Of a DNA stretch of 64,000 bases, positions 15,801-61,237 are shown piece by piece. The position numbers were made by a program, and so were the translations under genes. Source of the DNA: Paludibacteraceae bacterium (lineage in GTDB: Bacteria; Bacteroidota; Bacteroidia; Bacteroidales; Paludibacteraceae); assembly GCA_017447875.1 (NCBI GenBank), contig JAFSMP010000040.1:62001-126000 (forward strand), read 5' to 3'. The number at the start of each line of letters is the position of its first letter. Positions within the stretch are counted from its first letter, which is position 1. The notes beneath the pieces are model-generated. The model did no database searches, was not told where the DNA came from, and saw only the letters and a program-made list of their open reading frames with translations.

Positions 15801-18447
15801 TATCTATTATGGTAATACCGGTACAATGACTTACGCAAATCATGGTGTAGGAACCGGTTGGATTATGGAGAATACGATGGCAGGTGGTTTCAAGAAAGCG
15901 AAGATTACTACCAATGCTGCGGGTAACTACACCTTCAATCTGAGTTATTCACCCAATGCTTCCAGCGAGTATCGTCTGCGTATGGAGGTGGATTATCCGA
16001 TTGCAGATGGTGACTACCGCTTGATTTATACCGATGCAACACGTGATAGTGGAACTCGCTATAAACCATCGGCAATTGTAACGAAAGCAAACAATAGCAA
16101 AGATACCGTTTCGTTCTTTATCCGTCCGAGTTCATCACCGGTTCTGAAGATACAGCAAGCAAGCGTTACCAATGCCGGTGTTATCACTTGGGGTGACCTT
16201 AGCGATATATCCAGTTCGGTTAGCAGTTTGTCGAAGGATAGTGTGTATAACATCTGTCTGACGATGAACGGTAGCGGTGTTATCTCTGTAGAGAACGTAG
16301 AGGCGTACACCGGTAACTTCTATATCCGTACAAATGCAGCAGGTGCCAGCAAGTGGGATAACTACAGAAGTTCAGACCACCTGATGACTTATTCCGAGTA
16401 TTCAGCTACGAACGCTGACTATAGTCACTATTTCATGGCTTATGTAGGTAATGGTACGAATGTCAAGTTCGTGGTAGCGAATGACTATAGTCCGTGTATC
16501 TCGGATACTATAAAGGTACAGACATACCGCGATGGAGATGCTTCGCATGTCAATGTAGATGGCGATATCCAAGCTGATGCTAATGTACGCTTTATGTGGA
16601 ATAGGCACAACAACGGCGCTTACCGTGCATACTTGGCTGCGGCTAAGAGTGATGGTTCGAAGTTCCTTGTACTTCGTGCTAACTCTAATACAGACCTTAT
16701 GGACGAGAACGGTAATGCGTTGATTAACTCTGCTAATAGTGGAGAGGCCGGTTATAACCACAAGGCTCCGGATAACTCGATGCAGTTTATCGATAACGAG
16801 AACTGGATCTATGAGACAACCGTTAAGATTAAACCGGGTGCTTTATTGAAGTTGTATGCGAACTTCCACAATGCAGACTTCTACTATAAAGGTGAGAATA
16901 ATGACACCTTCGATGAAGACAATGCTATCCAGCTTCTTGGTGGTTCCGGTGATGCAGAGAAGATACGTGTTATCTATGACTTCAAGACCGACCGTTTGGT
17001 ATCTGCTTGGATGCCGACAGGAGACATTGATGAGGTAAAAGAGATTTATGCCGACGTCATGTTTGTTCGTGAGCATCAAGGAGATATAGAGCAGTTGACC
17101 TTCTCGAAGGGAGACGGAGAAACCATGGGTGCTATTACTAAGATAGAAACGGCTTATGGTGTATTGCGTTTTAATAAGTGGACGATTAATAACAAATCGA
17201 AAGAAGGTGCTCATGCTGTATTAGATCCGTTACTCTCTCGCTATGTGCGTGACCTGTTCTACGTATCCTTCCCGTTTAAGGTAGCGATGAACGAAGTATT
17301 CGGTTTCGGTACGTACGGCAAGCATTGGATCATCGAGTACTATGATGGTGAAGCCCGTGCAGCGAATGGTTTCTGGGCAGATACTCCGACCTATTGGAGA
17401 TTCGTTACAGACCGTAGGGGTAAGTATTTCGAGCCGAACCAAGGATATATCATCGCTTTGGAATTGGATGAAATGGACGAGGATTCCGAAGTATGGGATA
17501 ATAACGTGGAGAATGTTGAGTTGTACTTCCCGTCTTATGGTACGATGGGAGATATCACGAATGAAACATTAGTGCATACTTTGCCGTCACATGCGTACGA
17601 TCCTGCTGCTCATCCTGGTCATTCTGATGATCGTTCTATTGCAGATAGCCATTGGAATGTAATGTCTGTACCGACATATGTCAATACGAGCAGTGTGGAT
17701 TTCGCTAACACGACGTGGACAGCTACTCGCCCGAGTTTCCTTTATGAATGGAACTCCAATGATAACACGCTGACAGCTCGTTCCGGAAGCGGTTATACCT
17801 ACCACGCTATGCATGCGTATATGGTACAGTATAATGGCAATGTGACATGGACTTCTACCAGCGTTACGCCTGCATCTGCTCCGCGTCGTAACCCGGAGGC
17901 TCCTAAGGACGTTGAATTCCGTCTCGAGTTGAGTATGAACGAGCAGATGGCAGACCAGACCTTCGTCCGCTTGAGCAACGAGGAAGTCAGTGCAGGCTTC
18001 GCTTTCGGTGAAGATATGTCGAAAGAGTTCAACAAGACTCGCTCGAATATCTATACCTTCATTGGTACTGAGAAGGTAGCCGGTAACGTTCTGCCGATGA
18101 GCGAGCAGACAACGGTAGTACCGGTAGGCGTTATCGTGAAGACAGATGGCGACTATACCTTCGCAATTCCGGAAGGAACGAGTGGAGTAGGTGTAACGCT
18201 CTTCGATAGCGAGACCGGAATCCGCACGAGCCTTAGTGCTTTGGATTATACGATTGCGCTGACGGCTGGCACGTACAATAACCGCTTCGTATTGGAGATC
18301 TCGCCGATCAAGCCGATAGCGACTGGTGTTGAACAATCACAAATGACCAATGACCAAACACCAATCAAGAAGGTCTTGATCGATGGTCTCTTGTACATCG
18401 TGAAGGATGGTAAGATGTTTGACGCTCGCGGAGCGGTAGTAAAGTAA
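12865..18447 (+). CDS. Giant secreted surface protein with InlB-type repeats, 1860 aa
   Basis: Long signal sequence: a basic N-region to about residue 30, then 'YAAMLLMLLTLGAGQMWA' ending near residue 49. Residues about 295-570 hold Listeria-Bacteroides (InlB B-type) repeats: 'YDINLNANGGSGAAKVVTVTYDA', 'RTGYNFAGYW', 'LYAHWS' and repeats of these; another is near 675-745 (EVTVQYKDASG). The long middle has no family I can name. The C-terminus is the shared module (KVLIDGLLYIVKDGKMFDARG); immediately before it, residues about 1823-1835 are encoded by a heptamer array. Likely an adhesin-like surface protein. With no promoter after dinD it probably depends on upstream transcription. Confidence 0.8.
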   Translation: MKNYNLISRLLSYSHEKQSPQRFARYAAMLLMLLTLGAGQMWADNAGLKDCYLRYSKNGSETTVTTSEGTTTGTESTLNEVTSLSITGIWIKNWTNSGTGISGNQVCYMIWSTHGGDGSWNYLTTTSQGSYSGNTREDSWTGTINIVTSSTPSDEYYLNYYFESWYSGGEGNHYLPGNSGKSKLHYKVLPPNPSSISVSATSGSIGGSGTENAPYLVQYNGSLSLSASGTRSFDDPNSSLYVKYGNASYSSTATKTISSITSTDAQYIDVEIKYYNSSAELSSATPRTQRVYYKVASYAITLDDNGTYQEDGSATAAYLRSTLTGITAPQRTGYHVDGYYGEAGLTTHISDTSGNLQANKTVSSTAYTNGSSQWVKQSATTLYAKWAANTYDINLNANGGSGAAKVVTVTYDASLPTTLKGGGALTAHTRTGYNFAGYWDNTTSGTKYYNADLSTNTNWNKTTADPLYAHWSAKSYTVTLDKQTSAEGYGGNTGTIGNQTVTYDAALPVLSGTMPTAANGYAFMGFYSKTGGAGTKFINANGTWAVTNVTDTVSSSTWVKDGGITLYAYYKKAEITAITFTGGPIVAPSTSKTVTATISPTPTGTTTICWRVFYNNDNLLDPQPTFTPANAQGNSVSFISPAASGMYKVEAVLHLGSGCEGTTLDSVVANFQVAGEHEVTVQYKDASGNTIQASGSVTGKPLEWSSGIEAPEIFGYTFHHWLAGDGVTLSEDGTNAKTGARADSSLVSPIYIKAVYDGRLTAVYSQNQMIYFKNTLGWDNVFVNFHTGNAWNNEGNGSGSPKGVGNSGLTPRNKHMIQIGESDVYYYDYGAESIDPSLYISFTNKSRDGVAEFWGDNPDGIAVVYPANYPDAISTDKSDENGFKAATPMFVPLSGIDPVAANVTSTGKANYYNAGYWTMYTPGTGYTLEIYYDSDESSCIQSIPFTSEDDLMPMSAVVDLEANSTYRYQVRRGGTESAGIYYGNTGTMTYANHGVGTGWIMENTMAGGFKKAKITTNAAGNYTFNLSYSPNASSEYRLRMEVDYPIADGDYRLIYTDATRDSGTRYKPSAIVTKANNSKDTVSFFIRPSSSPVLKIQQASVTNAGVITWGDLSDISSSVSSLSKDSVYNICLTMNGSGVISVENVEAYTGNFYIRTNAAGASKWDNYRSSDHLMTYSEYSATNADYSHYFMAYVGNGTNVKFVVANDYSPCISDTIKVQTYRDGDASHVNVDGDIQADANVRFMWNRHNNGAYRAYLAAAKSDGSKFLVLRANSNTDLMDENGNALINSANSGEAGYNHKAPDNSMQFIDNENWIYETTVKIKPGALLKLYANFHNADFYYKGENNDTFDEDNAIQLLGGSGDAEKIRVIYDFKTDRLVSAWMPTGDIDEVKEIYADVMFVREHQGDIEQLTFSKGDGETMGAITKIETAYGVLRFNKWTINNKSKEGAHAVLDPLLSRYVRDLFYVSFPFKVAMNEVFGFGTYGKHWIIEYYDGEARAANGFWADTPTYWRFVTDRRGKYFEPNQGYIIALELDEMDEDSEVWDNNVENVELYFPSYGTMGDITNETLVHTLPSHAYDPAAHPGHSDDRSIADSHWNVMSVPTYVNTSSVDFANTTWTATRPSFLYEWNSNDNTLTARSGSGYTYHAMHAYMVQYNGNVTWTSTSVTPASAPRRNPEAPKDVEFRLELSMNEQMADQTFVRLSNEEVSAGFAFGEDMSKEFNKTRSNIYTFIGTEKVAGNVLPMSEQTTVVPVGVIVKTDGDYTFAIPEGTSGVGVTLFDSETGIRTSLSALDYTIALTAGTYNNRFVLEISPIKPIATGVEQSQMTNDQTPIKKVLIDGLLYIVKDGKMFDARGAVVK
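18334..18368. repeat. Heptamer array inside coding sequence (CAATGAC type, 5 units)
   Basis: Five 7-base units read in frame as part of the linker just before the C-terminal module of the 1860-residue protein. Confidence 0.8.
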
Positions 18448-18448: not shown

Positions 18449-18500
18449 GAATTAGTGAATTAGAGAATTAGGGAATTAGTGATTTTCGAATTAGCGATTA
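18449..18500. repeat. Octamer array (GAATTAGN type)
   Basis: Six or so 8-base units directly after the stop codon of the 1860-residue protein and just before the 113-residue gene. Confidence 0.8.
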
Positions 18501-20251: not shown

Positions 20252-20283
20252 AGGTGAGAGGTTATAGGTGATAGGTTACAGGG
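20252..20283. repeat. Heptamer array (AGGTTAT type, 4 units)
   Basis: Units AGGTGAG, AGGTTAT, AGGTGAT, AGGTTAC between the ATPase gene and a terminator. Confidence 0.8.
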
Positions 20284-20740: not shown

Positions 20741-21966
20741 AATACATACAAATAAATATAGAAGCGAAAGGATTCCCCAAGACAGAATTTGTCGGGACAC
20801 TGGGGCATGATATGATACGCGGCAATGCGACGTACCAGTGGGAGTTTGATGGTCAATGGTTGCAAAAGCATCGGCAAACTCGACTGAGCGGAGACCTGCA
20901 GAATGCGGGAGGTCCGCAGTACGGCACAGGCCGTCTGTTCGGTTTTCTGCAAGATGCTATGCCGGATCGATGGGGAAGACGGTTGATAGATAAGCGGGAA
21001 CGGCTGTTGGCCGCACAAGAAGGGCGAGCTCCACGGCATTTGACGGACATCGATTATCTGACCCAGATCAATGATACCACCCGCATGGGAGCTTTGCGAT
21101 TGAAAGACGGAGAGCGGTTGTTCGGCACCGAATATGCGGATACTCCGGTTCCGCCTCTTACGCATCTGCGTGAGTTCGTGGATATGGCGCAGGAGTATGA
21201 GCGGCAGGACGAGCAGGGAGGCTCTATCCGCGAGGAGTGGTTGCTGAATATCTATAAACAGGGTTCTTCTTTAGGTGGCGCGCGTCCGAAAGCAAATGTG
21301 CGTGACACGGATGGCTCGTTGTGGATAGCCAAGATTCCGTCCGTTAATGATGATTATGATGTGGCATTATGGGAGTTCTGGGCGCACAAGATGGCTAGTC
21401 AGGCAGGTATTGACGTTCCGGAAATGCGCTTGTTTTCCTTGCCTGGACAGAAATACCATACCTTATTGTCGAAACGTTTCGATAGAGACGTCGAGCAGCG
21501 TATCCATTTTGCTTCCGCGATGACGCTCTGTGGGTTACAAGATGGAGCAGATGTAACTACAGGAAACGGATATCTGGATATCGTGGATGTGATAGTCGGT
21601 AATGCAGGCTTTGTCGATCCACAATCCGCATTGGAACAGTTGTACCGACGTGTGGCCTTTTCTATCGCTATCCGCAATCATGATGATCATTTCCGCAATC
21701 ATGGATTTCTATTGACAGAGCAGGGATGGGTTTGGTCGCCGGCTTATGACCTTAACCCCTCCGATTTTAGCACGCAGAGTCTGCTTATCTCGCGTGATAG
21801 CAATGAGTCGTCGTTAGACGTACTGTTAGCAGCAGCCGGAGATTATATGTTAACCACTGACCGCGCTCAGCAGATCATCAACGAAGTCCGTACCGCCATG
21901 ACCCATGCCCGTCCAATAGCCCATCAATGCGGTATCTCCGGCCATGAAATGACGCGGTTTCTCTAA
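20737..21966 (+). CDS. hipA: HipA-family serine/threonine kinase toxin, 409 aa
   Basis: Full-length HipA with N-terminal subdomain ('GTGRLFGFLQDAMPDRWGRRL'), Gly-rich loop 'SSLGGARPKA' (177-186), ATP lysine in 'LWIAKIPS' (about 199), catalytic loop 'NHDDHFRN' (314-321) and metal-binding Asp in 'SPAYDLN' (D338). Family members phosphorylate targets such as glutamyl-tRNA synthetase and cause growth arrest. All key residues are intact. The stop overlaps two TCTAATC heptamers (21962-21975). Confidence 0.87.
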   Translation: MKYIQINIEAKGFPKTEFVGTLGHDMIRGNATYQWEFDGQWLQKHRQTRLSGDLQNAGGPQYGTGRLFGFLQDAMPDRWGRRLIDKRERLLAAQEGRAPRHLTDIDYLTQINDTTRMGALRLKDGERLFGTEYADTPVPPLTHLREFVDMAQEYERQDEQGGSIREEWLLNIYKQGSSLGGARPKANVRDTDGSLWIAKIPSVNDDYDVALWEFWAHKMASQAGIDVPEMRLFSLPGQKYHTLLSKRFDRDVEQRIHFASAMTLCGLQDGADVTTGNGYLDIVDVIVGNAGFVDPQSALEQLYRRVAFSIAIRNHDDHFRNHGFLLTEQGWVWSPAYDLNPSDFSTQSLLISRDSNESSLDVLLAAAGDYMLTTDRAQQIINEVRTAMTHARPIAHQCGISGHEMTRFL

Positions 21967-22013
21967 TCTCTAATCGAAAAATGCTTTTTTCTTTCGACTT
22001 TTTTCTTTTATCT

Positions 22014-22121: not shown

Positions 22122-23015
22122 ATGAAAAAAGGGCTATGTATAGTATCTTTTTTATTCGCCTCAATGACGTTGTGGGCGAATGCGGACTCATTGTCTGTAG
22201 CCGAACGCAATGCCGCGCAGGGCTTCAACGACACTATTGACCGTCTTGCTCCGGATTTCGTGACGGTGAGTCTGTGCATCGCTGATCCTACAGATCAGAA
22301 TCAAGACTATCTGGGAATAACCGGTCATGCATTTCTGCGCCTACAATGTCCAACTTTTGATTTGGATTATTGCTTCAGTTACGAGAGTGAGAGAATCAAA
22401 GGACAATTGTGGGACTATTTGACTGGCAAACTGAAGATGGGGATGCGTGGAGTTCATACAGATGAGTATGTGGAGGACTATCGAGTTTGGAAACGTGCGG
22501 TGCATGAGTATCATATCAATATGCCACCGGAAGCAGAACAACGCTTGTGGGAACAGATGGATAACCACATGCTGAATGAGCGAGAGATGCAGATGGATCT
22601 TATTAAATTCGGCTGCACCAATACGTTACTTCGTTATGTAGAGCGATCTCTGCTCCCTGATACGATAGCTTATCAATGGCCGGAGAAATTCTATACCAAA
22701 TCGGCTATGGAGATAGCGGAGGAGCATTTGGAGAATTATCCTTGGACAACATTAGGGCTGAGACTTACCACAAGCGATGAAATAAACCGTCTTAAGACCC
22801 CTAAAAAGAAAGTACTTTTCCCGACCGACCTGCTCGAAGTTTGGTCTCAATCCACGATTAATGGTGAACCCCTCCTAACTTATGTGGGCGATTTGGTGGA
22901 AGCAGAGCCTGTAATTGTAAAGAAACCCTGGTTCACACCGCAGCTATGCGGAATATTGCTCTTGATATTCTTGGTTGGAGGAATAGCATTTGCTATCATG
23001 CGAAAACGAAAATAA
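22122..23015 (+). CDS. DUF4105-like exported membrane protein, 297 aa
   Basis: Signal peptide about 1-20 (ends TLWANA), a globular domain with 'GITGHAFLRLQCP ... DLDYCFSYES' (about 66-90), the type of segment seen in DUF4105/Lnb N-terminal periplasmic proteins, and a C-terminal membrane helix (about 271-292, 'LCGILLLIFLVGGIAFAIM') with basic tail RKRK. Probably faces the periplasm or outer leaflet, anchored at the C-terminus. It leads the run of same-strand genes containing the condensation-like, decarboxylase, ACP and ligase genes; eight bases separate it from the next start, where a heptamer array begins. Confidence 0.65.
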   Translation: MKKGLCIVSFLFASMTLWANADSLSVAERNAAQGFNDTIDRLAPDFVTVSLCIADPTDQNQDYLGITGHAFLRLQCPTFDLDYCFSYESERIKGQLWDYLTGKLKMGMRGVHTDEYVEDYRVWKRAVHEYHINMPPEAEQRLWEQMDNHMLNEREMQMDLIKFGCTNTLLRYVERSLLPDTIAYQWPEKFYTKSAMEIAEEHLENYPWTTLGLRLTTSDEINRLKTPKKKVLFPTDLLEVWSQSTINGEPLLTYVGDLVEAEPVIVKKPWFTPQLCGILLLIFLVGGIAFAIMRKRK

Positions 23016-23020
23016 ATCGC

Positions 23021-23048
23021 CAATGACCAATCACCAATCACCAATAAA
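23021..23048. repeat. Heptamer array supplying a start codon (CAATGAC/CAATCAC type)
   Basis: Four units; the ATG in the first unit (23023) is the likely start of the condensation-like gene and the array encodes its first residues (MTNHQSPIK). Confidence 0.8.
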
Positions 23049-24180
23049 GAGGTTCCCTCTTTTGCCTTTCTCCCAACTGGTGTATGATATTCCCTGTTGG
23101 TGGCGGCATGTGTATCGATTTCCTTTTACATTTTTATGGAAAGACGGCGCTAAGGAGAAGGTGCGTATAGAGAAGGCAGTACGTTCTGCGCTAACGAACC
23201 ACCCGGTGTTTCAGATGCGAACCGATTGGCGTGGTAGGCAATATACTGCTCCACAGAATGATATAGTACATGGCCCGTATCATGACATAGATATTTTGGC
23301 TGATGGCGATGATGTAATCATAAACATGACGGTTAGCCGTATCTTAGGTGACGGCCGAAGTGGCGAGATACTAATGGATGATATCCGTCGTGCGTATAAT
23401 GGCGAATCATTAAAACCGGATGACTATTGGGGTTACCTCGAGTATATTGAGCAACAGAAGCAATTACAGCATTATGCAGATAGTAAGGTTTGGTTGGAGA
23501 ACGAATTTACGGACGATTCCATTCCCGTGCGTCCTACGTTAGATAGACCATTATGGACATTATTCTCGCCTAAAGTGGGTGTGTATCAATCAGACTATTC
23601 AGATTTACATCAATCTTTATATAGTTTTGCCAAAGAGCATGTTCTCTCTTTGGACGGCTTTTTCTCGCTGTGCGCCGCTTTAGCTATTGCCGAATATTGC
23701 GGAACAGACGCTGCGGCGCTTACTTGGGCCTATGAAGGCCGTGAACGACCGGAAGAACAACGTATCTTTGGATCTCTCCATCGCGACATCCCCTTCCAAA
23801 TCAAAAATTTGAAATCAGAAATCAGAAATCATAAATCGGATTTGATCCGCGAAGCTCGTAATCAAATCCGCTCCGGTATCGCGCATAGTGATTTCCCCTA
23901 TACACTCACTAAACCATTTACAAAACGTTGGAATTATGCAGTCAATGTGCTACGTGTAGAAGATGAGCATGAATTGATTAAACTCTTACCGCAGCCGGTA
24001 GAAATACTTCCTTCTTCGCCGCAGAAATATGCCTATGCGCTCTTGGATGTCGAGATTCATGAGTCTTTCGACCATCTGCATATCGTCTACCGCTACTCTG
24101 CGACGCATTATAAGGAATCGTCCATCCGCCGCTTTGCCGGCTTAGTAAGAAAATACGCGGAGTGGCTGCTGACAGAATAG
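23023..24180 (+). CDS. Condensation-domain-like (CoA/ACP-dependent acyltransferase superfamily) protein, 385 aa
   Basis: Resembles a free-standing NRPS condensation domain: 'PLLPFSQLVYDIPCWW' at the N-terminus, 'ALTNHPVFQMRTDW', the HHxxxDG position at 105-111 reading S-R-I-L-G-D-G followed by RSGEILMDDI, and 'AALTWAYEGREREE..'-like strand 'LTWAYEGRERPEEQRIFGSLHRDIPF'. The DG pair is kept but both His are replaced, including the usual catalytic one, so either chemistry differs or the protein binds rather than catalyses. Start 23023 is the first ATG after the upstream gene; 22990 is possible but overlaps. Residues 259-272 come from a heptamer array. Context (decarboxylase, ACP, AMP ligase) suggests acyl transfer from ACP to an amine or lipid; inferred. 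Confidence 0.6.
   Translation: MTNHQSPIKRFPLLPFSQLVYDIPCWWRHVYRFPFTFLWKDGAKEKVRIEKAVRSALTNHPVFQMRTDWRGRQYTAPQNDIVHGPYHDIDILADGDDVIINMTVSRILGDGRSGEILMDDIRRAYNGESLKPDDYWGYLEYIEQQKQLQHYADSKVWLENEFTDDSIPVRPTLDRPLWTLFSPKVGVYQSDYSDLHQSLYSFAKEHVLSLDGFFSLCAALAIAEYCGTDAAALTWAYEGRERPEEQRIFGSLHRDIPFQIKNLKSEIRNHKSDLIREARNQIRSGIAHSDFPYTLTKPFTKRWNYAVNVLRVEDEHELIKLLPQPVEILPSSPQKYAYALLDVEIHESFDHLHIVYRYSATHYKESSIRRFAGLVRKYAEWLLTE
23798..23839. repeat. Heptamer array inside condensation-like gene (AAATCAN type, 6 units)
   Basis: Six 7-base units read in frame, adding roughly 14 residues rich in Lys, Asn and Ser. Confidence 0.85.
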
Positions 24181-28812: not shown

Positions 28813-28846
28813 CATAATCCCGTAATTACGTAATCCCGTCATTACG
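28813..28846. repeat. Octamer array (CGTAATCC/CGTAATTA type)
   Basis: Four 8-base units between the zinc-finger gene and the DUF3737 gene. Confidence 0.8.
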
Positions 28847-48063: not shown

Positions 48064-48096
48064 TAGGTTATTGGTTATAGGTTATAGGTATAGGTT
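48049..48096. repeat. Heptamer array spanning stop and start codons (ATAGGTT/ATTGGTA type)
   Basis: Seven units (one short by a base) that encode the last residues and stop of the upstream protein and end exactly at the ATG of the next gene. Confidence 0.85.
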
Positions 48097-52400: not shown

Positions 52401-54870
52401 TCTGGGTAACGTAGAACTCTATATCAAGGTCAAGACCAACGACTCGCTTGTGATCTCCACTTCGTTCGGTAACTATAGCGCGAAAGCTGCTGATCCGAAT
52501 CAGCAGAAAGCAAAACTCGTCGTTCCGAACGTGGTATATGAGTTGCCGAAGGATACGGATATGTGGTTCCAGATTTGTATGCCGTATCTCCACTATCTGT
52601 ATAAAGGCGAGAATATCAGTAATTATATCTACTCGGATTCCAGTGCGCTGTCGTACGAGTTGGAGGGTAATGAAGAGGCTAAAATTACAATCACGGCTAC
52701 GTTCAATGACACTCTCAACTATAATATACCTGAGCGCACGCGTATAGTTAACAAGAGCAAAACCGAGCGTAAAGGACGCCGTCTGCTGAGCGACCTGCTC
52801 TCGGAGGCTATCAGTAGATACGGACGTGGCAATACCTTAGATATCACCTCCTTCGAGGATACCTATATCGATAGTATGCTCCATCGTTTCGTGACTCGTG
52901 ACTCTGTGACGCTGTACTACCGTGTTCGTTCCACTCGGGCAATGAAGTTCTGTCTCCATATGCCGCAGGTAACGGGAGATGAATACCTCAACCCGACACG
53001 TTTCGACTGGGAGCATGGTTATGTCAACCCGGCGAAGAGAACGGACTATGTGCTTGTCAATATTGATAGCACGCGTGTACCGCAAGGTAAGGATCTGAAG
53101 ATCCATATGCTGAACTGGACCAACGTACCGTCCAAGGTGGAGGCTACTATCTATAAGGCAGAGAAAGAAGGTGCCGGAGATGACTTTGGTACCATCACCC
53201 GAGTTATCGATGGTGATACGGATACGATTAAAGTCATCGAGCGTCAGTTCTTAGCCGATATGGGTTGGCCGAACCTGATGATTAAATATTATTCGGATAC
53301 CACTACACATGTATGGGCTGAGCCTACTGACCCGCTCAAACGTGATACAGTGGACACCGCTATTGTGGCATTCGTATGTCCGAACACCGTTTATACTACC
53401 CGTTATGACGGCTATGCAAGTCATATGATTGGTCCGAAGGGCTGGGAAGAGGTTATCCCGTACGACTCGATCAACAAGAAAGAGGCGAAGATAACGACCT
53501 ATATGATCTCCTTCGATGTTAAGCCGTTGCAGGAACCGAACCTGCTCTCTATTGACTCGCTTAAGAACAAGCCGACTATCCAACGTGGTGCTACGGTAGA
53601 TGCTTCTGCCGCTACGACGGAGATCTTCAACTGGCTCAAGACGAGACAAGGCGATGCGCTGGTAGGCGACACGCTGCAACCGGTAGCCGGTCCGGATAGT
53701 ATCAAGTGGGAGTATAGTTACGACGGTACGACCTTCACGGACTTCCCGACACCGGTACTGACTTCGGCATCGATCGCATTGCGTTACAGAGTGCTCACCG
53801 AGTGCGACTCGACTCTCTATAGCGATACGTTCATCAACGTGATTCGCGATACGCTCGAGAAGATCGACTACTGCGGTCCGTTCACTTGGGAAGGTGTGAA
53901 ATATACGACCGACACCTTGGATTCGGCCGTTTACCACTTACCTCCGGGAGGTTTTGACAGTATCGCTTATCTGAAGTTAACCATCAAACCGGTGGTTCTG
54001 GCCAAAGAGGTGGTTAATGCTTGCGATCCGACCTACGTATGGCCGTTCAACGGTAAGACCTACACGGCTACCACGACTCCTACCGAGTATACGGATACCA
54101 TCGAGGCAACCGACGGATGCTATAATGTATGTACGCTCAACCTGACCTTCGTGCCGATTGAGACGAGTGTTAGTCTTTCCGAGTGTAACGAGTATTACTG
54201 GAAAGAGGTAGACGAGACATATTACAACGATACGACGGTGATCAAGACACTCCTCACGGAGGACGGCAAATGCGACAGCACCGTTACATTGACCGTTAAG
54301 ATCAATCATCCGACTGTACGCACGCTCTCGATTGTATCGAAGTACGGCGACCGTCTGTTGATGATCAACCGTAACGAGATCAATGACAGTAAGGATATGG
54401 ATATCTATCTGGATCTGGATAAAGACCAAGATAGCGTGAAATGGTATATGGAGGCAACACCGAACGATATTTATCTGACTTCGGGTTACTACCTGACCAA
54501 CCCCGACGGTTCTCAGAACGGTAAGTATATCCAACCGGGTAAGACGTACTATGCAAGGATCTTGTATAGAGGTGGTACCACTTGCGGATACAAGGCTGAG
54601 ACCAAGCACTATACCACAGGTAAGGCTGCTGCGGCTCCTGCACTTGTTCCGTCGCTCGCTCGTCCGGGAGAAGACATCCGTGTCATCAACCTCAATCCGG
54701 ATGAGACCACGACCATCCGCATATATACTACGGAAGGTCTTATCCAGGGTACTTACACTGTTCACGGTGAAGAGTCCTTCGCGATCAAAGCTGCTAACGA
54801 ACACGGTTTCTACCTGGTAGAACTGAAAGCGGAGAGCATCAAGTCAACCTTACGTTATATCGTTAAATAA
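49414..54870 (+). CDS. Giant T9SS cargo protein with tandem modules, 1818 aa
   Basis: Signal peptide about 1-19. Residues about 30-1250 consist of roughly eight tandem modules of 125-150 residues ('FDW..G.....TLWYRVDL', 'NxGTxxAxLKxSMxFxCP', 'YxR.I.RNMFE', 'DTIWIGLET'), diverged but alignable by eye. About 1440-1620 hold repeats like those of the 44749 protein ('CGPFTWEGVKYTTDT', 'CDSTVTLTV'). The final ~75 residues are a classical type A T9SS sorting domain: 'ARPGEDIRVINLNPDET', 'TIRIYTTEGLIQG', 'GFYLVELKAES', ending TLRYIVK. This is the only protein here with the full sorting domain. Expected to cross the outer membrane through T9SS and be surface attached. Confidence 0.85.
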   Translation: MKKFFLCTMASMVTVFAMAIGRNDGSTKANAKEFDWDKGVTHTGGTLWYRVDLAPLYEEENPSLTLYLTNPSNVVDDSVKVSMQATVAGQEESKDYTIAARQYKTYTANAKALITLRQKEIYLTLTTKAATPGGSTTIKLSAKVFEAADLDETCKDARTLKWGETAVQNPMYSAWWKVSLKPIKDVEGFDAQVTIKNTGSKTVNLKMGQSLDCPSSGMTKREYEIPAGESIVKKVPRDMIASVQPDELYFGVENVESQVSMLVEKVAQPIEYVIPEANKMPGVNLHVTDTLVPLPVGTTLYKISVADMDSMAKYEPEFTYRNVGSTPAKVTVQMSFTRPTKSTSDTEYDLAEGAEEIVVYKKNMLEGMDGVDSIYLLTTVTGTVNFYGRFKHVREGKACKTNIDFNWETGHTQEGRTTQWYAINVADARDRLKDIMVYVNNQGTASANLKASMAFSCPYIDLTEMSRTIAKNDTVSRRLGFSSYAMMSDTIWIGLETNQDIKFWADTVDAQKKAEVDTLCLKAVTFDWTQGVQQEANDTVWYLLKMDSVRELSKFPTVVVENMSSTADAVITAEMSLECPDSIENEQHSITIKAADTYSRKITRNMFENIVQDEIYLRVVSTQKISLRIRMNEEAEGSTCGSAIPFNWVSGNSQAADANLWYKVDLREVMKSTDDLRLTIENKDAGQCKGVGQLTFGCPDEEAPSTQSFTLNGKQTKTIFREHSSLQLLPDSAIYINLQGNTAMRISAERVAAGAFDPIYNSGLSFDTIYLDTKLYTDPTVATGWYIVPASELQALRTLNENEALTPKIYLANEGTSDYDVTIEAAFAFPITEKMITKKITVPANQEINHSLDYKLFSQILTAKVGDKNKFDSIVVRITIPAEAIGKVKFRSEYAKAYGGNRKEAAIPITLGNQFTQSPNTEIWYKIRTADWKKKDLYGKSLHIATKNAGKGNATINVVVNDGILSSEDMLMERGERTIKKGESRSHNVPAEAVYGLGNVELYIKVKTNDSLVISTSFGNYSAKAADPNQQKAKLVVPNVVYELPKDTDMWFQICMPYLHYLYKGENISNYIYSDSSALSYELEGNEEAKITITATFNDTLNYNIPERTRIVNKSKTERKGRRLLSDLLSEAISRYGRGNTLDITSFEDTYIDSMLHRFVTRDSVTLYYRVRSTRAMKFCLHMPQVTGDEYLNPTRFDWEHGYVNPAKRTDYVLVNIDSTRVPQGKDLKIHMLNWTNVPSKVEATIYKAEKEGAGDDFGTITRVIDGDTDTIKVIERQFLADMGWPNLMIKYYSDTTTHVWAEPTDPLKRDTVDTAIVAFVCPNTVYTTRYDGYASHMIGPKGWEEVIPYDSINKKEAKITTYMISFDVKPLQEPNLLSIDSLKNKPTIQRGATVDASAATTEIFNWLKTRQGDALVGDTLQPVAGPDSIKWEYSYDGTTFTDFPTPVLTSASIALRYRVLTECDSTLYSDTFINVIRDTLEKIDYCGPFTWEGVKYTTDTLDSAVYHLPPGGFDSIAYLKLTIKPVVLAKEVVNACDPTYVWPFNGKTYTATTTPTEYTDTIEATDGCYNVCTLNLTFVPIETSVSLSECNEYYWKEVDETYYNDTTVIKTLLTEDGKCDSTVTLTVKINHPTVRTLSIVSKYGDRLLMINRNEINDSKDMDIYLDLDKDQDSVKWYMEATPNDIYLTSGYYLTNPDGSQNGKYIQPGKTYYARILYRGGTTCGYKAETKHYTTGKAAAAPALVPSLARPGEDIRVINLNPDETTTIRIYTTEGLIQGTYTVHGEESFAIKAANEHGFYLVELKAESIKSTLRYIVK

Positions 54871-56325: not shown

Positions 56326-56979
56326 ATGACGATACTATGTATCGAAACTAGTACATCGGTCTGCTCGGCCGCCATCTGTAAGGATGGCGTGCCGGCAGAA
56401 CAATGTATTTGCCGCGAAGGTAGCAATCATGCTCGGTTGCTACCTCGTTATATTGAGTATCTGCTCCAATACGCCAAGGACCACCACCTCACCATCGAGG
56501 CGGTTGCCCTAAGCGAAGGACCCGGCAGTTACACCGGTCTGCGTATCGGAACCTCCACCGCCAAAGGACTGTGCTACGGACTTAATGTCCCACTCATTCC
56601 CGTTCCGACATTGGAGATACTCAAACTTGCATCCGGCATCCAAGAAGGAATATTAATTCCCATGATCGATGCAAGGCGTATGGAAGTATATACGCTTATC
56701 AACGAAGAGACGAAAGCAGTCGTTGTAGAAAACGAAGAGAGTCTGTATGCAGGAGAAGAAGCGGTTAATTATTTTGGCGACGGAGCAGCTAAGTGTGCGA
56801 AGATCTTCACCAAACCGAATTGGCATTATATCCCGGACATCGTGCCTGAAGCACAATTCATGGGTGCGTTAGCGGAAAGTGGAAAGAAGAAAGTGGAAAG
56901 TGTGGATCTTGCCTACTATGAACCCTTCTATCTCAAAGAGTTCGTAGCCGCACCAAGCCATGTGAAAGGACTGAAATGA
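56326..56979 (+). CDS. tsaB: tRNA threonylcarbamoyladenosine (t6A) biosynthesis protein TsaB, 217 aa
   Basis: TsaB/YeaZ: 'ILCIETSTSVCSAAICKDG' at the N-terminus, 'HARLLPRYIEYLL', 'AVALSEGPGSYTGLRIGTSTAKGLCYGLNVPLIPVPTLE' and 'PMIDARRMEVYT'. Partner of TsaD and TsaE in making t6A37 in ANN-decoding tRNAs. Four bases after the outer-membrane gene and overlapping porW/sprE by four (ATGA). Confidence 0.92.
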   Translation: MTILCIETSTSVCSAAICKDGVPAEQCICREGSNHARLLPRYIEYLLQYAKDHHLTIEAVALSEGPGSYTGLRIGTSTAKGLCYGLNVPLIPVPTLEILKLASGIQEGILIPMIDARRMEVYTLINEETKAVVVENEESLYAGEEAVNYFGDGAAKCAKIFTKPNWHYIPDIVPEAQFMGALAESGKKKVESVDLAYYEPFYLKEFVAAPSHVKGLK

Positions 56980-59618
56980 GAATTTCAAATCTCAAATATC
57001 AAATCTTCAATATCATCATCCTTTCGATGATGATCTGCTCTTGTTCTACCCAGAAAAACACATGGGCGACTCGGTCGTACCATCAGACGAAAGTCCAATA
57101 TAACATTCTCTTTAACGGGAATATCGCATACGAAGAAGGCCTCAAAGCCATTCGTGATGCCAATACCGATGATTACACGAAGGTGCTTAATCTGTATCCC
57201 GTGAGCAATCATCAAGCGGCGCAGGCCAGTACCTCGCAGATGGATAAGACCATCGAGAAATGCCGCAAATGTATAAAGTTGCATTCTATCAAAGCGAAAC
57301 CGAAACGCGATCCGAAGAAAGCCGGTGACCCCAAGTATAAGTTATGGCTCCAGAATGAGGAGTTTAACAACAAGATGGGCTTGGCATGGATCCGTTTGGG
57401 CGAAGCTGAATTTCATAAAGGTGATTTCCTCGGTGCAGTCAGCACGATGAAATACATCATCAACCATTACCAGAACGATCCCGACATGATCGCGCAGGCA
57501 CAATTATGGATCGCACGTGCGTACGCGGAGATGGGTTGGCAGTACGAAGCGGAAGATATGTTACAGCGCGTGCAGATCGACGCACTGAGCAAGAAACATG
57601 CACGTCTATACTCTGCCGTCAAAGCCGATGTGCTGTTGCACGGTCAGCAGTACCATGCCGCTATCCCCTTCGTCAAGATCGCTATCCCGTACGAGAAACG
57701 CACCGTCTATCGTCCGCGTTTCGCCTATGTATTGGGTCAACTGTACGAGAAAGAGAACAAACGTGAAGAGGCAATCCAATCCTATAAATCCGTTGTGCGT
57801 ATGGCACCACCGGTGGAGATGGAGTTTAATGCCCGTATCCGTATGGCGGAACTGGGCGGCAAGAACAGCATCCGTAAGTTGCGCACGATGTCCAAGCAGT
57901 CCAAATACAAAGACAAACTGGACCGTATCTACGGTTCGATGGGAAATATTTACTTGGCTGCCAACGACACCGTCCATGCGCTCGAGATGTACCAACTGGC
58001 CATCGAAAAAGCGACGGAAGCCGGACCGGCAAAGGCTGCGGTGCTCATTCAAGCCGGAGATATTTATTATACGCAACGGGACTATGTCAATGCCCAACCG
58101 TGCTATCGCGAGGCAGTGACGATCCTGACCGCAGAAGATGAACGATTCGCCCGTATCCAGAAACGCTCGGAGGTGCTGGACGAACTGATCGTAGCCTATA
58201 ACCAGGCCGAACTGCAAGACTCGCTGGTGAGCCTGAGTAAGAAGAGCGAAGAAGAACAGCGGGCCATCGTCGAAAAGATCATCGCTGATCTGATTGAAGC
58301 CGAGAAAGCCGATTCTGCCCAACAGGCTCAGGCGGCACGCGAGATGGCACGAGGAGACGGTGGACTGCGTAGCGTCAATACGGCGAACATGTTAGGCGGT
58401 GGCGGTCAGAAGGGTGAGTGGTATTTCTATAACCAGCAACTGATCAAACAAGGACGCCAGGAGTGGCAACGCCGGTGGGGAAACCGTCCGTTGGAGGATA
58501 ACTGGCGCAGGAAGAATAAACAGGTGGTGATGAATGAAGATATGGGTCTCTCGCCGGACGATATACCATCCGATGAGAATGACTCTACGATGACGGACTC
58601 CCTAAGCACTAATTCGCCTGTCTCTAAACGTTTAGAGACCGACACCCATAAGCCGGAGTATTACCTGCAGCAGATCCCGCGTACACCGCAGGACTTCGAG
58701 GTATGCGACAGCCTGTGGCGCGAAGCGATGATAGCGCTCTATTATATCTACCGCGATAAGTTGGAAGATGAATCGTTGGCTAAGGCAACGCTGGACGAAC
58801 TGGTGGAGCGTTTCACGGGTCACCCGGCGCTGGACGATATCTTTGAAGAAGAACGGCTTCGTGCGTTGCGCAACGACCCGGAGTATATCGCCCGGATGCA
58901 ACGGATGATAGCCGAGCAAGACTCGCTCTATGCCCTCACCTATGCGGCATACACCAAAGGGCAGTATAAGACCGTCAAGGCCAATACAGCTAAGTTCCAA
59001 CAGTTCGCAGAACGGTCTGACAGTGAAACGATCCCACAACGCAGTGGTCTCGCTTCTCATTTCCTGTTCCTCAATGCTGTCTCTGTGGCACGTACCGAAG
59101 GACAGCAAGCGTTCATCGCGGAACTGCAGACCCTCGTCGAACAGTACGGAGAGACCGAGTTAGGGTCGATGGCTAAAGATATGCTTGCGATGATGGGACA
59201 AGGTATGGAGAGTAAGAAAGGCGGTGCAACCGGTAGTTTGGCAGACTTGCGCGACAAGACTGCGGATACGCAAGATAAGGCAGATGAGACCGACGCACAG
59301 CAACAACAGTGGTCGGAAGACCGTAAGCAAGCGTCTGTTGTATTGCTCATCCTGCCTACGGCGGACGAACAGGCACTGAACGAACTGCTTTACGAGGTGG
59401 CACTGTTCAACTTCTCGCAGTTCCTTATCCGTGACTTTGACCTGCAGAAGATGCCGGTCTTCGGCGAAGGAAGTGCCCTCCGTATCAGTGGATTTGCCGA
59501 TATGGACGAAGCAGAATGGTGGATTGACCTCATTCGCAAGAACGCAGAGATGCAGCAGGTACTGATAGGAATAGAAATAAAGGCAGTAACCGAAGTTAAC
59601 CTGCCTTTATTAAAATAG
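56976..59618 (+). CDS. porW: T9SS-associated TPR lipoprotein PorW/SprE, 880 aa
   Basis: Lipoprotein signal (hydrophobic segment, then I-C-S-C with C23 as likely lipidated residue) followed by a long TPR array (about 130-420: 'GLAWIRLGEAEFHKGDFLGAVSTMKYIINHY', 'ARAYAEMGWQYEAEDMLQ', 'LGQLYEKENKREEAIQSYKSVV', 'YGSMGNIYLAANDTVHALEMYQLAIEKA') and the family's later parts 'GEWYFYNQQLIKQGRQEWQRRWGNRPLEDNWRR' (about 485-520) and 'YYLQQIPRTPQDFEVCDSLWREAMIALYYIYRDKLED'. Length and order match SprE/PorW, needed for type IX secretion and gliding in relatives. Residues 2-14 of the signal peptide are encoded by a heptamer array. Cotranscribed with tsaB; a hairpin at its end acts as terminator. Confidence 0.88.
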   Translation: MRISNLKYQIFNIIILSMMICSCSTQKNTWATRSYHQTKVQYNILFNGNIAYEEGLKAIRDANTDDYTKVLNLYPVSNHQAAQASTSQMDKTIEKCRKCIKLHSIKAKPKRDPKKAGDPKYKLWLQNEEFNNKMGLAWIRLGEAEFHKGDFLGAVSTMKYIINHYQNDPDMIAQAQLWIARAYAEMGWQYEAEDMLQRVQIDALSKKHARLYSAVKADVLLHGQQYHAAIPFVKIAIPYEKRTVYRPRFAYVLGQLYEKENKREEAIQSYKSVVRMAPPVEMEFNARIRMAELGGKNSIRKLRTMSKQSKYKDKLDRIYGSMGNIYLAANDTVHALEMYQLAIEKATEAGPAKAAVLIQAGDIYYTQRDYVNAQPCYREAVTILTAEDERFARIQKRSEVLDELIVAYNQAELQDSLVSLSKKSEEEQRAIVEKIIADLIEAEKADSAQQAQAAREMARGDGGLRSVNTANMLGGGGQKGEWYFYNQQLIKQGRQEWQRRWGNRPLEDNWRRKNKQVVMNEDMGLSPDDIPSDENDSTMTDSLSTNSPVSKRLETDTHKPEYYLQQIPRTPQDFEVCDSLWREAMIALYYIYRDKLEDESLAKATLDELVERFTGHPALDDIFEEERLRALRNDPEYIARMQRMIAEQDSLYALTYAAYTKGQYKTVKANTAKFQQFAERSDSETIPQRSGLASHFLFLNAVSVARTEGQQAFIAELQTLVEQYGETELGSMAKDMLAMMGQGMESKKGGATGSLADLRDKTADTQDKADETDAQQQQWSEDRKQASVVLLILPTADEQALNELLYEVALFNFSQFLIRDFDLQKMPVFGEGSALRISGFADMDEAEWWIDLIRKNAEMQQVLIGIEIKAVTEVNLPLLK
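56981..57015. repeat. Heptamer array inside porW signal-peptide codons (AATNTCA type, 5 units)
   Basis: Five 7-base units beginning two bases after the start codon; read in frame they give the N-terminal part of the lipoprotein signal. Confidence 0.8.
59579..59608 (+). terminator. Terminator at the end of porW
   Basis: Stem AAAGGCAG/CTGCCTTT around a 14-base loop, overlapping the last codons of porW and followed by ATTAAAA. Confidence 0.7.
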
Positions 59619-59819: not shown

Positions 59820-59846
59820 CGCTGCTTTGATTTTCAAAAGCGGGTG

Positions 59847-59878: not shown

Positions 59879-59893
59879 TTTTTAAGCAAAATA

Positions 59894-61237
59894 ATGACAA
59901 AAAAATTTTATATTGAGACATACGGATGCCAAATGAACGTTGCGGACAGCGAAGTGGTGGCGGCTATCCTCCAAACCACTGATGCCGAGTTGACCGAGAA
60001 ATGGGAAGAGGCAGACATCATCCTGCTGAACACCTGTTCCATCCGTGACAACGCCGAGCAGAAGGTCGGTGCCCGTCTTCGTGAGTTAAAGGCGCACCTG
60101 CGAAATCATAAATCACAAATCACAAATCACAAATATCACTCCGATAATCCACGAGTGATTATCGGAGTGATTGGCTGTATGGCGGAACGTATGGGTCAGG
60201 AATTGATCGATGAGTACGATGTGGATTTTGTGGCAGGACCGGATGCATACCTCGATATCCCGAATCTGTTGGCGCAATGCGAGCAGGGACACAAGGCGAT
60301 GAACGTGCAACTCAGTACCACGGAGACCTATCGTCAGATCATCCCGTCCCGTATCGGTCGCTCCATCAGCGGTTTTGTCTCTATCATGCGCGGATGTAAT
60401 AACTTCTGCTCCTACTGCGTCGTACCTTACACCCGTGGTCGCGAGCGGAGTAGGGACGTAGAGTCTATCCTCAATGAGGTACGCGACCTGCAAGCCAAGG
60501 GATACAAGGAAGTGACCCTCCTCGGCCAAAACGTCAACTCCTATCATTTTGAGGATATCGACTTTGCCGACCTATTAGAGATCGTTGCTGATGCCGTACC
60601 CGATATGCGTATCCGCTTCACGACGAGTCATCCGAAAGATATGAGTGATAAGACGCTTGAAGCCATCAGCCGGCATAAGAACCTGTGTAAATTTATCCAT
60701 CTGGCGGTGCAGTCGGGTTCGAACCACATCCTCAAACTCATGAACCGTAAGTACACGCGGGAGTGGTACCTGGACCGCATCGCGGCTATCCGGCGTATCC
60801 TACCCACCGCTGCCATCAGTACCGATATCTTCTGCGGTTTTCACGATGAGACACTCGAAGATCACGCGCAGACCTTGAGCCTGATGCGCGAAGTGGGTTT
60901 TGACTCGGCGTTTATGTTCAAGTACTCCGAGCGTCCCGGTACGTACGCGCAGAAGCACCTTCCGGACAATATCCCCGAAGAAGAGAAGATACGGCGTCTG
61001 AACGAGATCATCGCGTTGCAGACACAGTTGTCGCTTGAGTCCAACCAACGGGAGATCGGCAAGACGGTAGAGGTGCTCGTAGAAGGCTTCTCCAAACGCA
61101 GTCATGACGACATGTACGGACGTACGGAGCAGTACAAGACGGTGGTCTTTCCGCGTACCGACCAGAAGATAGGAGACCTCGTGCAAGTACGTGTTTTGGA
61201 AGCCTCTGCAGCTACTTTACGAGGAGAAATCGTGTAA
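59894..61237 (+). CDS. miaB: tRNA-2-methylthio-N6-dimethylallyladenosine synthase MiaB, 447 aa
   Basis: Radical SAM methylthiotransferase making ms2i6A37. UPF0004 domain with C12, C48 and C95 for the auxiliary cluster ('TYGCQMNVADSE', 'LLNTCSIRDNAEQKV', 'VIGCMAER'); radical SAM Cys at 168, 172, 175 ('RGCNNFCSYCVVPYTRGRERSR'); C-terminal TRAM domain (about 380-447). Between the second and third cluster Cys a heptamer array adds about 11 residues (70-80), lengthening a loop that is short in relatives. No promoter of the usual type was seen on this strand. Confidence 0.93.
   Translation: MTKKFYIETYGCQMNVADSEVVAAILQTTDAELTEKWEEADIILLNTCSIRDNAEQKVGARLRELKAHLRNHKSQITNHKYHSDNPRVIIGVIGCMAERMGQELIDEYDVDFVAGPDAYLDIPNLLAQCEQGHKAMNVQLSTTETYRQIIPSRIGRSISGFVSIMRGCNNFCSYCVVPYTRGRERSRDVESILNEVRDLQAKGYKEVTLLGQNVNSYHFEDIDFADLLEIVADAVPDMRIRFTTSHPKDMSDKTLEAISRHKNLCKFIHLAVQSGSNHILKLMNRKYTREWYLDRIAAIRRILPTAAISTDIFCGFHDETLEDHAQTLSLMREVGFDSAFMFKYSERPGTYAQKHLPDNIPEEEKIRRLNEIIALQTQLSLESNQREIGKTVEVLVEGFSKRSHDDMYGRTEQYKTVVFPRTDQKIGDLVQVRVLEASAATLRGEIV
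60103..60137. repeat. Heptamer array inside miaB (AAATCAC type, 5 units)
   Basis: Five 7-base units in frame, encoding part of a Lys/Asn/His-rich loop in the first MiaB domain. Confidence 0.9.

Follow-up and report, generated by a model that had tools for sequence, protein, structure and literature searches.

What are the arrays of 7- and 8-base units that lie between and inside the genes of this bacterium, how do they arise, and how do they come to stand in the reading frames of conserved proteins? The question is raised by a 64,000-nt stretch of DNA, here called the window, which was analysed at its full length. The host lives in the gut and is uncultured; tiny, mostly 7-letter repeats of the same kind are found in its relatives as well.

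Short arrays in the window and in the genus

The original prediction placed about 20 arrays of 7- or 8-base units in the interval 18334..60137. TRF, run over the window with a minimum score of 30, returned 57 rows, 31 of which have periods of 7, 8, 14 or 16 and fall at 25 places, with 21 places inside that interval. Ten of these 21 also pass a more stringent scan (+1 per match, -2 per mismatch, score >=12; background of 10 third-order Markov shuffles), the remaining places being individually weak (Table 1). The strict scan finds seven arrays of period 7, one of period 8, six of period 14 and two of period 16 in the window, each against 0.1 expected; period 21 contributes two arrays, period 10 one, and the remaining periods between 2 and 30 none. 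The array excess in the window is confirmed as real. At least eight arrays had been predicted to be read in frame in conserved genes, and ten places do lie inside open frames. That the arrays are a known RNA family was rejected: Rfam at gathering scores yields one tRNA in the window and no match in three further stretches of the same genome.

Table 1. Array sites in the window (all on the + strand). Strict-scan positions are given with their period; "weak" marks sites that are weak when taken alone.
Position	Array and context	Placement	Evidence
653..682	AATGTTG heptamer, 3' end of first open reading frame, outside the interval	between genes or at gene end	TRF, strict (7: 653-679)
18330..18365	CAATGAC-type heptamer, in frame near end of 1860-aa protein	open frame	TRF; weak
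18449..18482	GAATTAGN octamer, directly 3' of stop of 1860-aa gene	between genes or at gene end	TRF, strict (8: 18449-18479)
20252..20282	AGGTTAT/AGGTGAG, intergenic	between genes or at gene end	TRF; weak
21960..22013	TCTCTAA and CTTTTTT stretches, end of HipA-like gene and beyond	between genes or at gene end	TRF; weak
23015..23045	CAATGAC/CAATCAC heptamer, between Lnb_N-domain and Condensation-like genes	begins at stop codon; first ATG of Condensation-like gene may fall inside	TRF, strict (7: 23020-23045)
23798..23837	AAATCAN, in frame, Condensation (PF00668) protein	open frame	TRF, strict (7: 23811-23837), Pfam
24712..24737	AAATCAT, in frame, PSD-like protein (PS_Dcarbxylase PF02666), loop 1	open frame	strict (7: 24712-24737), Pfam
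25130..25165	AAATCNA, in frame, PSD-like protein (PS_Dcarbxylase PF02666), second loop	open frame	TRF, strict (7: 25130-25162)
26905..26944	RAATCNN, in frame, AMP-binding (PF00501) ligase	open frame	TRF, Pfam; weak
27831..27848	AAATTTG, in frame, AMP-binding (PF00501) ligase	open frame	TRF; weak
28815..28846	TAATCCCGTAATTACG 16-mer/octamer, intergenic	between genes or at gene end	TRF, strict (16 alone: 28815)
44339..44370	CGTAATAA octamer, directly 3' of stop of 3056-aa gene	between genes or at gene end	TRF; weak
48047..48098	ATTGGTA/ATAGGTT heptamer, spanning end of 1104-aa gene and following gap	between genes or at gene end	TRF, strict (7: 48049-48089)
52889..52910	TCGTGAC, within 1818-aa open frame	open frame	TRF; weak
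56874..56902	GGAAAGT, in frame, TsaB (Pfam assigns the TsaD family PF00814), loop 4 of comparison	open frame	TRF, strict (14 alone: 56875)
56981..57015	AAATATC/AAATCTC, first codons of TPR gene (PorW/SprE-like, a name taken from the original prediction)	open frame	TRF, strict (14 alone: 56981)
60103..60134	AAATCAC, in frame, MiaB (Pfam Radical_SAM, UPF0004, TRAM)	open frame	strict (7: 60103-60134), Pfam

The excess was expected to extend over the genome, and a per-period count gives 57 period-7 arrays in 456 kb of its 2246 kb, with 23 observed against 0 expected from shuffles in a 284-kb part. Period 7 ranks first among periods 4-24 in eight of nine genomes sampled from the genus, the exception being G056, where it is not the commonest (two arrays). 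It is also the most frequent small period in each of the three Bacteroidales kinship groups that were sampled. That the arrays reflect chance or an artefact of metagenome assembly is scarcely credible. The members of the genus are apparently metagenome drafts, and in about 21 kb from each of four cultured Bacteroidales the strict scan finds no period-7 array, but this reading is already contradicted: shuffles yield about none, the arrays lie within open frames of housekeeping genes, and identical insertions are found in independent assemblies (RimO in genomes G103 and G112; further sites common to G090/G136, G090/G078 and G078/G128).

Reading frame and exchange of arrays in protein loops

Units of 7 and 8 bases are coprime to 3, so whichever forward frame is read, a pure array encodes the same cyclic peptide, and it is consequently open in all three or in none. 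AAATCAC, AAAGTCG and GGAAAGT are free of stops in the forward direction; AAATCAT, AAATCTA and CAATGAC are not. In both arrays of the PSD-like protein the unit is altered exactly at the positions where the pure word would read TAA, which directly supports the selection against stops that had been proposed. Copies within genes preserve the frame and avoid stops.

In MiaB, TsaB, RimO and the PSD-like protein, a loop that lacks repeats in some species is occupied by unrelated repeat families in others, and different species hold different families or none at the same sites. For loop 1 of the PSD-like protein (readable at 9 of 13 loci) the window has AAATCAT, its four closest orthologues have four other heptamer words, and four more distant orthologues show no visible array. 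RimO loop 2, readable at 18 of 31 loci, measures 6-8 aa in 13 and is filled in five, by four families. Relatives carry AAATCTC, AAAGTCG, GTGGAAA, AAAGACA or hairpin repeats of about 16 bp in the MiaB loop, and AAATCNA, AAAGTCG or AATCACC types, or no array, in TsaB loop 4. Orthologues were anticipated to differ by the size of an array; in addition to such empty or differently filled loops, TsaB loop 1, readable in 35 genes, is 11 aa long in 11 of them, whereas six have 18 aa (+21 bp) and period-7 DNA in every case. A strict 21-bp quantum fits TsaB loop 1 and MiaB and is ruled out by array loops of 17, 19-21 and 27 aa. These between-species comparisons, which rest on one genome per species, indicate that arrays are gained and exchanged for others.

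It is very improbable that the arrays are kept for a function, whether they bind proteins on DNA or RNA or serve as useful peptide linkers. Their siting beside stops and starts resembles that of TAACTGA repeats, for which one report suggests a translational role (PMC4679880), but the unit sequence is not conserved per site between species, sites are empty in relatives, and one site accepts heptamers, hairpin repeats or the 33-bp unit described below.

In a 57.7-kb alignment of a close species pair, 14 array sites comprise six conserved, eight replaced and none that differs in unit number only. The proposal that the arrays are slippage hotspots, in the sense of a varying number of units, finds no support in this pair; among more distant species there are 21-bp length steps, such as gain or loss of whole units might leave. 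For comparison with phase-variation (contingency) repeats, whose unit number varies within a species and switches a frame or promoter, the pair supplies the same 0 of 14 between species. Some of the replaced sites retain a similar core word, as local turnover would leave.

Dispersed composites and candidate enzymes

Some composites are present as identical copies at many unrelated sites, and their copy number bursts in single genomes. One composite core has 92 copies in 28 of 121 congeners (control 0), 53 of them in three genomes (19, 19 and 15), with a variance/mean of copy number across genomes of 10.6. It is part of a sharp-ended 33-bp unit with direct internal repeats, found in 57 flank contexts. 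The unit is dispersed in frame across unrelated genes: of 33 scorable copies 28 lie within genes, in a single orientation and codon phase, and in single genomes it occupies 12-17 places, inside housekeeping proteins resembling MetK, RsgA, ArgRS, LysRS, RimO and TsaB. Of 101 genomes, seven have between them 13 copies of a 27-mer, mostly with unrelated flanks; its reversed control gives 0. Net gains at filled sites are unequal, with one codon versus eleven in MetK and about +27 bp in RimO and RsgA, and part of the target is therefore replaced. By eye, neither terminal inverted repeats nor target-site duplications are seen in the 57 contexts or in eight comparisons with array-free relatives, and no cleanly empty site bears such a duplication.

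Local slippage alone is insufficient, because the core occurs 92 times and stands, as a sharp-ended unit, in so many flank contexts. A purely local origin, in which the polymerase slips by a preferred 7-nt step from a chance seed, mutated units spread within the array and nothing is copied between sites, is unlikely. It would account for the rank of period 7 in the three kinship groups with units differing by locus and lineage, for the match of periods 14 and 21 to multi-unit slippage, and for the core words retained in the close pair; it also agrees with two papers that report the dominance of heptanucleotides and propose that the polymerase contacts 7 nt (PMC4679880, PMC4692102). However, identical 27-33-bp composites with sharp ends at unrelated sites, the genome bursts and the close pair argue against it, and for the 33-mer it is contradicted.

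The window's own genome contains no copy of the 33-mer core. Sites of the 33-mer in other species include an alpha/beta hydrolase and TsaA; at the corresponding sites this genome has an AAATCAC array (L005) and an AAAGTCG array (L047). A comparison of composites spanning 583 of its 2246 kb found a composite of 37-40 bp that L036 has three times, one of 30 bp common to L392 and L035 and one of 28 bp common to L384 and L246, all with unrelated flanks, and the apparent evidence of copying in this genome rests on these few shared composites. Simple one-word arrays at two loci, such as the 25 bp of AAATCAC common to L047 and MiaB, could have arisen independently. Unit identity inside genomes is 3.3% (permuted mean 1.8%, maximum 3.0%). 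Between TsaB loops of one gene, 11 of 206 loop pairs share a 10-mer (permuted mean 2.25, maximum 7), while for words of 13-14 bp the four sharing pairs of 206 merely equal the permuted maximum. Gene conversion between neighbours was rejected, since pairs less than 1.5 kb apart and distant pairs of the same genome share units at similar rates (3.9% versus 3.4%). A phage origin was likewise rejected: three consecutive AAAGTCG units occur in 27 viral stretches versus 24 for the reversed control, no clear excess, and the 33-mer core, in a query one base longer than that used for the genome counts, is absent from the viral stretches searched.

A dedicated mobile system, such as a RAYT-like HUH single-strand transposase or an RNA-templated reverse transcriptase, is quite unlikely to move the cassettes, although a sharp-ended unit and copy-number bursts are what it might produce. 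Y1_Tnp scores above cut-off in 9 of 18 genomes, including G000, G090, G136 and G128; G000 and G136 encode proteins (371 and 407 aa) that bear the motifs MPDHIHI/MPDHVHI and DNPRR and reach 39.8 and 35.0 bits against the REP-associated tyrosine transposase model NF047646 (cut-off 80). However, Y1_Tnp has no match in G078, which holds 19 copies, or in G103, G112 and G106, and three of five RAYT-like genes inspected by eye adjoin different hairpin repeats of their own. Reverse transcriptase (PF00078) is found in 4 of the 18, including G078, and was rejected as the driver, since it was not found in G000, G090 or G136. The lack of target-site duplications and inverted ends also speaks against such a system. 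G000, G090, G136 and G078 are drafts, 77-86% complete, and among these reverse transcriptase and RAYT searches of draft genomes no enzyme is tied to repeat spread. Of the small mobile system suggested at the outset, the dispersal of some composites stands and the mobilising enzyme was not found in the genomes searched; the original interpretation is partly supported.

The explanation favoured here, and considered probable, is that words arise locally and that pieces are copied to tolerated sites by a putative mechanism. The arrays would be members of a population of short repeat cassettes that extends through the genus, with 7-bp words in the majority beside others of 8, 11 and about 16 bp and the 33-bp composite, occupying presumably dispensable DNA, namely intergenic linkers and variable protein loops. 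New words may originate where DNA is duplicated or slips locally, preferably by about 7 nt; pieces of arrays would then be copied elsewhere by template switching or another insertion process that partly replaces the target, and selection would retain stop-free, in-frame pieces read as hydrophilic loops. A host function need not be supposed. Alternatively, and held only tentatively, an undescribed copying process may write preformed 20-60-bp cassettes into expressed genes, with the 33-bp unit, which lacks inverted ends, as its clearest product.

Known repeats and the growth of protein loops

Heptamer repeats were thought to be undescribed in Bacteroidales, and this does not hold: they are known in Bacteroidetes, where Paludibacter propionicigenes, for example, has two TAACTGA sets, and in most genomes no long simple repeat is as common as the heptanucleotides (Mrazek et al., 2007, cited in PMC4679880). 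For in-frame heptamer cassettes in Bacteroidales no description was found in the open-access literature searched. According to the same paper, heptanucleotide long simple sequence repeats (LSSR), cyanobacterial STRRs and TAACTGA repeats have 7-bp units, are mostly intergenic and patchy between species, and are present in a few Bacteroidetes, Paludibacter among them (PMC4679880). The arrays described here share with LSSR and STRRs a 7-bp tandem unit above chance; unlike all three, they also occur within the reading frames of housekeeping genes, one family can take the place of another at a given site, and different sites have composites in common. They are not TAACTGA repeats, doublets of which are absent from the window and 20 further stretches of its genome. 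In the GGGNATC heptamers of Xanthomonas and Nostoc, too, some positions are fixed and others variable, and two relatives have them mostly between the same gene pairs with different length and sequence; those heptamers, in contrast to the present arrays, are described as G-rich, quadruplex-forming and intergenic (PMC4692102).

The closest known parallel is the Rickettsia palindromic elements (RPE), which have entered many unrelated genes: almost half of 44 copies lie in open frames, and 11 of 12 homologues are in frame (PMC10969869). The 33-mer is similarly dispersed in frame. RPE measure about 150 bp and are by name palindromic, whereas the units here have about 20-60 bp and no inverted ends. 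Having by eye neither terminal inverted repeats nor target-site duplication, the 33-bp unit also differs from MITEs. REP/RAYT systems resemble it in comprising short repeats without genes of their own, and about half of the genomes tested have a RAYT-like gene (G090 and G136 do, G078 does not), but by eye no hairpin is evident in either the heptamers or the 33-mer, and hairpins next to an HUH transposase are the mark of REP.

As judged from sequence, the repeats appear to lengthen loops of housekeeping proteins without breaking the proteins. In one genus with more than 100 genomes, the same enzyme loop is found empty, with one repeat or with another, and the growth of bacterial protein loops becomes a testable question. 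The findings suggest that bacterial short tandem repeats can disperse as pieces as well as growing and shrinking where they stand, and that a sequence of 33 bp can multiply with no transposon ends in evidence. If the undescribed copying process exists, few known dispersing DNA units would be as small as the 33-bp unit, which would keep supplying new protein loops.

Period-7 arrays in the genome and its relatives

Tandem arrays of 7-bp words are found well above chance in the window and in the genome from which it comes. With TRF, 25 places in the window carry arrays of period 7, 8, 14 or 16, 21 of them inside the array-bearing interval. A stricter scan (match +1, mismatch -2, score at least 12, compared with shuffles) returned seven period-7 arrays and one period-8 array in the window, each against 0.1 expected, and 10 of the 21 interval places passed at period 7, 8, 14 or 16. 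In 284 kb of the genome, including the window, there are 23 period-7 arrays against 0 expected and 19 of period 14, every other period giving at most 7; 456 kb yielded 57 period-7 arrays. Seven is the commonest period in eight of nine genus genomes sampled, the exception (G056) having 2 arrays. Period-7 arrays were also counted in stretches around MiaB from 80 named genomes. The 11 closest hold 38 over 225 kb (a figure inflated by the choice of stretches via an array-bearing gene), a second group of 20 has 22 over 373 kb, and the other 49 together have 33 over 915 kb. The closest 11 come from metagenomes and bear the title uncultured Bacteroidales; the RUG names of most of them we take to mean rumen. 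The next group is titled Paludibacteraceae or Bacteroidales. Four cultured Bacteroidales of the set have no period-7 arrays in approximately 21 kb each. The phenomenon is widespread, with an approximately two- to fivefold higher density among the closest genomes. Counts of the AAATCAN triple are 6 for the window's own genome and 0 to 63 per genome among 121, being above zero in 55 (reversed control mostly 0 to 4, once 13).

Dominance of heptanucleotides, and the idea of a polymerase contact, are already described in PMC4679880 and PMC4692102, and the former includes a Bacteroidetes heptamer, TAACTGA. No description of in-frame heptamer cassettes swapped between loops was found in the open-access literature searched. 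The window arrays match simple heptanucleotide repeats by their 7-bp unit. In-frame spread into genes is known for RPEs (PMC10969869); the structure of the window arrays, and of the 33-bp unit described below, sets them apart from RPE, MITE and REP elements.

When the unit length is not a multiple of 3, the forward frames of a pure array all read through the same cyclic peptide, and so the array is open in each of them or in none. AAATCAC (KSQITNH) and AAAGTCG (KVESRKS) are open; a TGA lies in the complement of AAATCAC, and AAATCAT and AAATCTA carry one stop per 21 bp. The PSD-like gene (PS_Dcarbxylase domain) has arrays of these last two words, and both stay open because the unit changes exactly at the stop point, to ...CAT AAA TCA AAA ATC... 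in place of TCA TAA and to ...AAA ATC GAA... in place of ATC TAA. The suggested selection against stops is directly supported at both arrays, and thus accounts in part for the variable seventh base.

Turnover of repeats in orthologous loops

Among 110 MiaB loci scanned, some representing one genome twice, 96 were read and 14 misfitted the search motif. The NTC-to-AER stretch measures 46-57 aa in 11 named close relatives, filled by AAATCAC, AAATCTC, AAAGTCG, GTGGAAA, AAAGACA, hairpin repeats of ~16 bp or degraded forms of these; in 68 other named loci read it measures 40-44 aa in 58 and 45-53 aa in 10, one of which (L147) holds an AAAAGCC array. Four loops were compared in TsaB (38 distinct genes out of 41 loci): loop 1 is 11 aa long and array-free in 11 of 35 readable genes and 18 aa in six, all six with period-7 DNA of different words, and further lengths exist. 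Array-sized differences between orthologues had been proposed as a check, and short array-free loops beside filled ones supply them. RimO loop 2 (31 loci, 18 read) has 6 aa in 12, 8 aa in one and fillings from four families in five, although two 33-mer cases among these may be one event; nine more genomes, one a repeat, gave four empty and four filled loops. PSD-like loop 1 could be read in 9 of 13 loci: five different heptamer words occupy it in the window and in the four orthologues nearest to it, and in four more distant orthologues no array is visible. These comparisons show repeated gain and replacement of repeats at tolerated loops.

Recent change was followed in the close pair G102 and G103, aligned over 57.7 kb at 96-97% identity apart from a single block of 13 kb (92%). 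An array of period 7 or 8, scoring 10 or more, is present in one or both genomes at 14 sites, of which four are identical, two differ by substitutions only and eight are replaced, with different arrays in both species at three and an array in one species only at five. Within 200 bp of the replaced sites, flank identity is 95.5-97.8% for five sites and 86-89% for three; one of the five retains 73% sequence identity and may be a case of plain divergence. None of the 14 differs purely in unit number; slippage hotspots of varying unit number, originally suggested, found no support in this pair. A similar core word survives at some replaced sites, and such replacements look like concerted turnover.

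Dispersed units and other repeat families

A 27-bp composite, first found in a pair of TsaB loops from a single genome (L151), occurs at 13 places in 7 of 101 genus genomes, six of them in G078 (reversed control 0). Its flanks are unrelated, except at RimO in G103/G112 and in a duplicated intergenic segment of G078 (two copies). The 18-bp core has 92 copies in 28 of 121 genomes (variance/mean per genome 10.6), concentrated in G078 (19), G090 (19) and G136 (15), which makes 16, 17 and 12 places once copies within 200 bp of each other are merged; it was not found in the window's own genome. From 94 site windows at 83 loci, including double fetches and orthologues, 57 sites were distinct by flanks, a sieve through which distant orthologues may slip. 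Conservation, fixed inside the core by the search itself, jumps at the left edge (0.33 to 1.65 bits) and drops through 1.16, 0.62 and 0.10 at the right, delimiting a 33-bp unit of ATGTACAA[A/G]G, the core and [A/G]AAGG. We found no description of it in the open-access literature searched.

One open frame is clearly longest at 33 of the 57 sites (24 are ambiguous), and 28 of these 33 copies, a few being pairs within one gene, lie on one strand in one phase, reading VQ[R/G]DNVQCTK. Since the unit is open in all six frames, the skew points to selection for a hydrophilic reading or to a phase-aware process. The hosts, named by reading the sequences rather than by family search, look like MetK, RsgA, ArgRS, LysRS, RimO, TsaB, TsaA, a GltD-like protein and T9SS C-terminal domains. 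Several of the last carry the same DNA in another frame (YKGTMYNVQGQ), which makes such a domain a possible source of the unit. Sorting domains ending GTMYNVQG, with this DNA in the other frame, were seen in L286/L439, L288, L440, L457, L407 and L399.

At two of the sites where other species carry the unit, the window's own genome has heptamers: DKSQITNHK (AAATCAC) in an alpha/beta hydrolase-like protein and EKSKVESK (AAAGTCG) in TsaA, which has no insert in a more distant relative (L124). Among the composites with unrelated flanks in the window's own genome, one of 37-40 bp stands at three sites in an 11-kb part of L036, one of 30 bp in L392 and L035, and one of 28 bp in L384 and L246. The search that gave them returned 527 place pairs with a common 18-mer and unrelated flanks, 45 of period 7, 5 of period 8 and 467 not periodic, many of which look like promoters. 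Unit identity within genomes is about twice the between-genome value, above all 1000 permutations. Loops of one TsaB gene have 10-mers in common in 11 of 206 loop pairs (permuted genomes: mean 2.25, maximum 7); for 13-14-mers the count equals the permuted maximum.

A second family has ~16-bp units that join an invariant word (GGTCTNNCAG) to a very small hairpin, its stem (by eye GCGAAGC, GTGAAAC, TCCGCAGGA, GGCGAAGCC) varying with matching changes on both sides. It was seen in L245, L246, L243, L031, L036 and L047, in the MiaB loop (L051, L072, L077, L112) and in TsaB loops (L112, L114, L265, L271), sharing protein loops with heptamers; the linker word is genome-dependent. Period 11 is raised in several sampled genomes, and 11-bp arrays of GTGGTCGCGAG type adjoin RAYT-like genes in L464, L465 and L467. 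The window's 40-bp hairpins resemble GAAAGGCACAATAC hairpins adjoining a RAYT-like HUH gene in L467 (further loci L465, L466), possibly forming a REP/RAYT system of the genus.

Positions of arrays and repeat features in the window and in other loci of its genome
Feature	Position	Remarks
Array-bearing interval	18334..60137	
PSD-like gene, two array loops	24712, 25130	
40-bp hairpin repeats	34630-34720; around 32943-32990	minus strand ...GAGCGAGAAAGGCACAAT; two places share 54 identical bp
Intergenic motif TTTGCATATATCAAAAAAAAGCAGTACCTTTGCA and variants	20326, 22020, 59850; also L031, L036, L042, L241, other own-genome loci	loci unrelated; resembles strong Bacteroidetes promoters, with TTTG boxes
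30-bp stretch of 10-bp units (TTGTTTGAGG type)	L241:5352, L036:8514	two unrelated sites

Possible routes of copying

Copying by template switching would account for target replacement and for the words in common, but not for sharp ends; a transposase would explain the sharp ends, but not target replacement. No target-site duplication was seen in comparisons with array-free relatives. We lean towards template switching for the heptamers; for the 33-bp unit either may apply. The small mobile system originally envisaged would fit the dispersal of the 33-bp unit and a few composites to many unrelated sites; as its enzyme, reverse transcriptase was rejected, as its distribution (4 of 18 genomes, G078 among them) does not track the bursts of core copies. 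The window's own genome encodes a RAYT-like HUH protein, and Y1_Tnp scored above cut-off in 9 of the 18 tested, drafts in which the absence of an enzyme is weak evidence; other hairpin repeats adjoin three of five RAYT-like genes read.

In the proposed sequence of events, words would be made as DNA is duplicated or slips, preferably in steps of ~7 nt. Pieces then stand at many unrelated sites, as comparison shows for the 33-bp unit and a few composites, and targets are partly replaced, as array-free relatives show: in MetK they have one codon where the filled version has eleven. Frame, phase and stop avoidance suggest that harmful readings would finally be removed by selection.
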